A stretch of DNA of 64,000 nucleotides from positions 1-64,000 of the forward strand of contig JAEURC010000052.1 of NCBI GenBank assembly GCA_016789025.1, in the 5' to 3' direction. This DNA is from Anaerolineales bacterium. Lineage in GTDB: Bacteria; Chloroflexota; Anaerolineae; Anaerolineales; Villigracilaceae. Positions 55,093 to 62,327 of the stretch are shown piece by piece (position 1 is the stretch's first letter; each line of letters starts with the position of its first letter). The position numbers and the translations under genes are program-made. The notes below the pieces were generated by a model that saw nothing but the letters and a program-made list of their open reading frames with translations, searched no databases and was not told the DNA's origin.

Positions 55093-55229
55093 TAAAAAAA
55101 CAAAATATGAGTTACGCAGTTGAACGTGTTTCGCCGCAGGTGCGCCAACTGCGTAAGTCCTAACGAAATAAAAAACTTCCGAGGCTTAAACCCGGAAGTT
55201 TTCAACTATCGAACTATTCAACTTTCCAA
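55093..55229. other. Gene-free gap
   Basis: Contains a long-loop inverted pair TTACGCAGTTG / CAACTGCGTAA (about 55111-55158), the cysS terminator and octamer repeats; no gene. Confidence 0.6.
55172..55202 (-). terminator. cysS terminator
   Basis: AAAACTTCCG (55172-55181) and CGGAAGTTTT (55193-55202); on the minus strand the stem is followed by TTTTTTATTTC. Confidence 0.8.
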
Positions 55230-61418: not shown

Positions 61419-61457
61419 AAAAAAGCCCGCCAGGTACATTTGTACCCGTCAGGCTTT
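61419..61457 (-). promoter_or_regulatory. Terminator-like hairpin in the aminotransferase leader
   Basis: On the minus strand AAAGCC...GGTAC and GTACC...GGCTTT arms form a stem followed by TTTTTT, 20 bp before the start codon. A short ORF (MPSQSLTGTNVPGGLFCFYK...) spans it and stops directly before the ATG. Consistent with transcription attenuation. Confidence 0.55.
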
Positions 61458-61586
61458 GGCTTGGCATTGCGTGGATGATCCAAAGATAAAATATTCGAAT
61501 ATGTCTCATCTCAACCCAATCTTAGCACGGATTTCTCCGCTGGCAATGGACAAATGAAACTTCCATAAGATGACAAGCGGACATTC

Positions 61587-61718
61587 TAGGGTAATCGCAT
61601 TTGAAAATCTTGATGCCCAACCTTTGGTTATTTTGTTTCAGAATCCGCTAATCTTTCTGAAAAATTCGCGTAGATTGGCGCAGATTAGCGGATAAAAAAT
61701 CTAAATGCGATAGCCCTA
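61587..61718. mobile_element. MITE-like element with 10-bp target duplication
   Basis: 132 bp. Inverted ends TAGGGTAATCGCATTT and AAATGCGATAGCCCTA match at 14 of 16 positions. GCGGACATTC occurs on both sides (61577-61586 and 61719-61728), a perfect target duplication. The interior has ATCCGCTAATCT and AGATTAGCGGAT as a perfect inverted pair. No ORF. Confidence 0.82.
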
Positions 61719-61751
61719 GCGGACATTCATCGTCGTAACTTTCGACTGCGT

Positions 61752-61757
61752 TACAAT
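61752..61757 (+). promoter_or_regulatory. -10 box of a leaderless gene
   Basis: TACAAT, 6 bp before the ATG at 61764. Confidence 0.55.
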
Positions 61758-61763
61758 GGGGCA

Positions 61764-62327
61764 ATGCCCCGCGCCTCTCGCCTCCCCTCCGGTCTGCTCC
61801 CCTTCCAACAGGGCGGTCTCGACTCGCTGTGCGGGCTGTACAGCATCATCAACGCGGAACGGATCATCAACCTCTCCTCCGATGAAGAAACCCAACAACT
61901 ATTCAACGACCTGATCCGCTTCTTATCGCGGCGGCGGCTGTTGCGCAAACTTCTCATCAACGGGATCATCCACACGGAAATGCTGTTGATCCTCGACAAA
62001 GTCGTCGGCAAGCAGAGGATCTCCAGCGTCGAAATCCCGTGGCGCGGCGTGCCAAACCCCGACCTCACCACCTTTTGGAAATCCATGCAAACGTTTCTCG
62101 ATGGCACACCCGGACGCGCCATCATCCTCGGCTTGCAGGGCTATCACGACCATTGGACAGTCATCGAAGCCATCACCAACCGCTCCATACTTTTATACGA
62201 CTCGTCGAAGATCAAACGCCTGCCGCGCCCGCATTGCACCACCGTCTACGCCACGTGGACGCGCAAACACCTGCTCCTGCCCGCGCAAACCTATTTCCTT
62301 TCCAACGAGAACGACGATGAAGAGTGA
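61764..62327 (+). CDS. Papain-like cysteine peptidase-fold protein (C39-like)
   Basis: 187 residues. LLPFQQGGLDSLCGLYSIINA places a Gln (15/16) eight residues before a Cys (23), as in papain-like and C39 peptidases; GYHDHWTVIEAI (His128/130) and ILLYDSS (Asp146) complete a plausible Cys-His-Asp triad. No signal peptide, so it should be cytoplasmic. It overlaps the nitroreductase gene by 11 bp. Could be a peptidase, transglutaminase-like enzyme or inactive relative. Confidence 0.68.
   Translation: MPRASRLPSGLLPFQQGGLDSLCGLYSIINAERIINLSSDEETQQLFNDLIRFLSRRRLLRKLLINGIIHTEMLLILDKVVGKQRISSVEIPWRGVPNPDLTTFWKSMQTFLDGTPGRAIILGLQGYHDHWTVIEAITNRSILLYDSSKIKRLPRPHCTTVYATWTRKHLLLPAQTYFLSNENDDEE

Follow-up and report, generated by a model that had tools for sequence, protein, structure and literature searches.

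MITEs are already known in bacteria as a kind of element, and those named in the available portions of two papers include Correia/NEMIS, RUP and Nezha (PMC10969869, PMC3733652). Those portions contain no ISAs1-driven MITE. The literature consulted, which took in available parts of PMC4133298, PMC3281130, PMC3542288 and PMC9208149, likewise yielded no MITE driven by ISAs1 from Chloroflexota; this is a weak negative.

Here we describe a 132-bp element lying between two genes of a Chloroflexota (Anaerolineales) bacterium, in a 64-kb stretch of DNA, the whole of which we refer to as the window. We consider it almost certain that the element is a MITE with ISAs1-family ends, most likely moved by an ISAs1 transposase acting in trans. 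The only less usual part is an inner palindrome that it shares with other repeats. The locus provides a well-documented transposition footprint in the little-studied Anaerolineales, covering its ends and duplication, its family and likely transposase, and the empty site. How bacterial MITEs originate could be tested on the palindrome, which is common to two MITE classes whose ends differ.

Structure of the element

The features of the locus are collected in Table 1. An earlier note on this DNA had described a MITE with a perfect 10-bp target duplication, inverted ends and an inner 12-bp inverted pair, and direct reading finds its coordinates and match counts correct to the base. The inverted ends match at 14 of 16 positions (17 nt at 88% with the shared outer base), the flanking duplication at 10/10, and the inner pair, at 61643-61654 and 61682-61693, is perfect. 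The element is short and non-coding, and any ORF inside it falls below 60 aa.

Table 1. Features of the element and its surroundings (window positions).
Feature	Position	Strand	Remarks
Left copy of 10-bp target-site duplication, GCGGACATTC	61577..61586	.	Direct reading and flank comparison
ISAs1-type MITE, 132 bp	61587..61718	+ (arbitrary)	TIRs, duplication, alignment
Left terminal inverted repeat, TAGGGTAATCGCATTT	61587..61602	+	Identical to both ends of the L079 ISAs1 transposon
Inner palindrome, ATCCGCTAATCT ... AGATTAGCGGAT	61643..61693	.	Repeat also found alone and in a second MITE class
Right terminal inverted repeat, TAGGGCTATCGCATTT (read on -)	61703..61718	-	Identical to one end of the L085 ISAs1 transposon
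Right copy of target-site duplication, GCGGACATTC	61719..61728	.	Direct reading and flank comparison
Block ACTTTCGACTGCGTTACAATGGGGCAATG with TACAAT (61752-61757)	61738..61763	+	Outside the MITE; largely conserved in element-free L133-L135
187-aa gene downstream of the insertion	61764..62327	+	Product matches neither Pfam nor NCBIfam at E <= 0.001

The duplicated 10-mer is not a common word in this DNA. Across the window it matches exactly at the two flanks and nowhere else, and its matches with at most one mismatch number 6 against 7.96 expected. Identical 10-mer pairs spaced 60-400 bp apart occur 87 times in the window, and the pair around the element is the only one whose enclosed ends agree at 14/16 or more positions. 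Such ends were absent from 60 dinucleotide shuffles of the window, in which two cases reached at least 10/16.

Related copies and their duplications

The window's own genome is a draft MAG of 3.41 Mb in 103 contigs, 96% complete, and holds one intact copy of the element, besides which contig C92 carries a degraded relative. Several dispersed copies are found across relatives. When 101 genomes were searched with the element, 23, its own included, matched some part of it at E <= 0.001, and near full-length matches outside its own genome were seen at G012:C359, G017:C51, G017:C31 and G059:C8. Across 400 genomes of the order, a strict end-to-end pattern retrieved 10 elements, spread over 7 genomes that again include its own; the reversed control of this pattern gave no match in any listed genome. 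The earlier note had offered, as observations telling against transposition, that no other copy or IS share these ends and that the flanking 10-mer be common; neither is the case, the 10-mer having been counted over the window, although its own genome contains a single intact copy.

Sixteen elements of 129-152 bp, namely the 15 MITEs of the duplication survey described below (window included) and L064, align end to end. The nearest relative of the window copy is that at G012:C359 (L028), with 82% identity. It carries, beside a repeated CGCT, 20 bp that have no counterpart in the inner palindrome of the window copy, which makes the latter look like a small internal deletion of the G012:C359 form. 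A consensus fold computed for these 16 sequences supports the stem formed by the termini (20 pairs, four of them changed on both sides, with a covariation term of -0.38). Because this amounts to little covariation, we make no claim of a selected RNA structure.

Target-site duplications were surveyed, among the loci collected, around distinct TIR pairs whose ends had at most two mismatches; these were chosen by their ends, not their flanks, and duplicates were removed. The degraded or truncated L064, L069 and L072 and the ISAs1 copy L086 lie outside this survey. Eight of the 15 MITE-length pairs (100-170 bp apart, window included) have a perfect 10-bp duplication and four have nine matches (9/10 in L129, a perfect 9 bp in L062 and L191, 9/11 in L031), leaving three, L033, L051 and L068, with none. 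At ISAs1 length there were 11 pairs, one of which, L080, lacks a right flank and could not be evaluated; six of the other 10 have a perfect 10-bp duplication and four have none. When flanks were mixed between elements as a control, 0 of 600 pairings reached eight or more matches in 10. The ISAs1 family makes duplications of 8-10 bp (ISfinder).

The link to ISAs1

An insertion sequence with the element's ends that makes 9-11 bp duplications, for which the earlier note had proposed a search, exists in the form of ISAs1, at 10 bp. The transposase was sought in 101 genomes with a single profile, NCBIfam NF033564 (ISAs1), which matched 25 of them at E <= 0.001, 19 over cut-off. Facing ends like those of the element, with at most three mismatches and about 1.2-1.36 kb apart, are present at 11 of 30 ISAs1 loci. 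The ISAs1 transposon at L079 (421 bits with NF033564), whose host belongs to the same family as that of the window, has at both ends a sequence identical over 16/16 positions to the left end of the element, and at its own left end the identity extends to 20 bp. In the transposon at L085 (407.8 bits) one end is identical, again at 16/16, to the element's right end.

Compared by eye, the identity between element and ISAs1 stops after 16-20 bp and the interior does not come from the transposase gene. The element is classed as ISAs1-mobilised and not as a deleted ISAs1 copy because the identity ends there; descent from ISAs1 by internal deletion appears unsupported, the likeness being confined to the termini.

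No match to NF033564 was found at E <= 0.001 in the window's own genome, nor did this profile find the ISAs1 transposase in three genomes with sister MITEs, G012, G013 and G017. Repeats are often lost from draft MAGs in binning, and partial ISAs1 copies occur in G014 and G016, of the same genus as the window's genome, so that the absence of the transposase from a draft MAG is weak evidence. Since none turned up in the MAG, the window's copy probably either depended on a transposase acting in trans or can no longer move.

We envisage that ISAs1 transposase supplied in trans would bind both 16-bp ends and move the element into the spacer between two divergent genes, at a 10-bp staggered cut. Gap filling would then leave GCGGACATTC on either side. 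The interior is a palindromic repeat common in the lineage, carried between ISAs1 ends, and not transposase sequence.

An empty site and alternative explanations

The earlier note had also suggested looking for the empty site in a relative, and L133 (JADLBX010000038.1, Anaerolineales MAG SJ198) supplies it. The divergent aminotransferase gene (88% aa identity) and 187-aa gene (90%) are both kept there, and the spacer aligns across the joined flanks of the window; the target site occurs in it once (7/10 bases alike) and the element not at all. L134 has one site-like stretch (6/10 alike) and likewise no element, its contig ending upstream. In L135, too, both genes are present (92% and 95% aa) and the element is not, although upstream of the TACAAT block the spacer is different. 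When the element was compared with L133-L135 by BLAST, the sole match was to 31 bp of the inner palindrome, at another place in L133. The empty site, the duplications of the sister copies and the ISAs1 transposons of like ends and duplication length together support the view that the element is a MITE placed by transposition.

Families such as IS4 and IS1634 make duplications of 9-11 bp, and the element could in principle have been moved by another family of this kind, its ends being of ISAs1 type by resemblance only. Such an origin would fit both the failure to find an ISAs1 transposase in its own genome and an interior free of ISAs1 sequence beyond about 20 bp, but, from a search that covered the ISAs1 family alone, we hold it to be very improbable: an ISAs1 element from the same family-level group is identical at both its ends (16/16), and ISAs1 elements share the exact 10-bp duplication length. 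The element also folds well as a DNA single strand (z = -4.5) and sits between divergent genes, as might a conserved regulatory palindrome or terminator that was never a transposon. That reading is, however, refuted and barely credible: the corresponding spacers of L133 and L135 both lack the element, the former being the empty site, its sister copies sit at unrelated sites, each with its own duplication, and the terminator scan is blank here, as is Rfam over the entire 64 kb.

The downstream gene

The 187-aa gene is kept at 55 loci in public genomes, mostly Anaerolineales or Chloroflexi MAGs. With no match in Pfam or NCBIfam at E <= 0.001, the name peptidase-like is that of the earlier note alone. 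TACAAT lies 33 bp beyond the element, as had been noted earlier, and ends 6 nt before the ATG of this gene, which suggests a leaderless start. That the promoter comes from the element is a reading we set aside as unsupported, since TACAAT is outside it and is conserved where the element is absent, most of the surrounding block being present in L133, L134 and L135. The insertion spares this block and may have changed contacts upstream of it.

The earlier note's proposal that the insertion could alter expression stands as a possibility compatible with a MITE, although no effect is evident. The insertion might act by replacing upstream activating DNA or through an outward promoter. The element ends close to possible contacts of RNA polymerase or an activator, and the available part of PMC10969869 reports promoters directed outward from other MITEs of bacteria. 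Against this, the TACAAT block is intact and conserved in element-free relatives with differing upstream DNA, the gene itself is kept in relatives where the element is absent, and a sigma-70 consensus scan of the region found no promoter on the + strand. On balance we think a change in expression unlikely.

Separately, a G+C-rich hairpin followed by T's lies on the minus strand at 61421-61460, some 20 bp upstream of where the aminotransferase gene starts. It is partly conserved in L133, was not listed by the terminator scan, and is possibly an attenuator or terminator.

The inner palindrome and a second class of MITE

Allowing one mismatch, the pattern GATTNGCGNAGATTAGCGGAY from the palindrome matched at 133 places in 14 of 41 genomes, a count in which one palindrome can appear twice, and its reversed control matched nowhere in the 41. 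Thirty loci, all those fetched with this pattern, were inspected. ISAs1-type ends lie on both sides of two and on one side of three, GACTTACGCA-type ends on both sides of three and on one side of one, and the remaining 21 have neither end type, so the palindrome stands alone at most sites. Both of its arms are present at 28 of the 30.

Around GACTTACGCA, 23 chosen loci were inspected. Twelve have an end pair of 96-138 bp enclosing both palindrome arms, L203 has one arm only, L213 has a pair without palindrome, and nine have no pair. One of the 12 two-arm elements (L005, at C97) belongs to the window's own genome, where the palindrome thus occurs in two MITE classes and also alone (C102).

The second class, mostly 105-115 bp long with GACTTACGCA ends around the same palindrome, is seen at L198, L206, L214, L222 and other places in G014 and G008, and G014 has 66 matches to its ends. 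L203 (G000:C66, 1501-1605), also in the window's own genome, combines these ends with a sister palindrome of CGCGAATT-like units instead of CGCTAATC. In the window itself, a roughly 51-bp inverted pair at 55110-55160, AGTTACGCAGTTG ... CAACTGCGTAAGTC, resembles a mini element of the GGACTTACGCA end class.

The earlier note had taken the inner pair as a sign that the element was built from another repeat family. By itself the pair would not have shown this; the proposal gains its support from the occurrence of the palindrome both alone and inside MITEs with unrelated ends. Tentatively, and with rather more doubt than confidence, we suggest that the palindrome may spread as a repeat in its own right and act as interchangeable cargo for at least two unrelated transposon classes, one with ISAs1-type ends and 10-bp duplications and one of GGACTTACGCA type. 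MITEs would then form when ends capture a resident palindrome, and not by internal deletion of an IS.

Comparison with known elements

Like the bacterial MITEs described in the available portions of PMC10969869 and PMC3733652, the element is short, non-coding, intergenic and dispersed, with TIRs and a target duplication. It differs from Correia/NEMIS, RUP and Nezha, as presented there, in having ends of the ISAs1 family. With the ISAs1 insertion sequences (NF033564) it has in common its 16-bp ends, matched by both of those of L079 and one of those of L085, and duplications of 10 bp. Those insertion sequences are about 1.2 kb long and carry a transposase gene, whereas the element, at 132 bp, has no such gene and an unrelated interior. 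The inner palindrome, for its part, can be likened to the REP-like palindromic repeats treated in the available part of PMC3733652, without regard to GTAG/CGTC tags or a linked RAYT transposase: it too is short, extragenic, repeated and often free-standing, but it is longer than they are and is built of repeated CGCTAATCT-like units.
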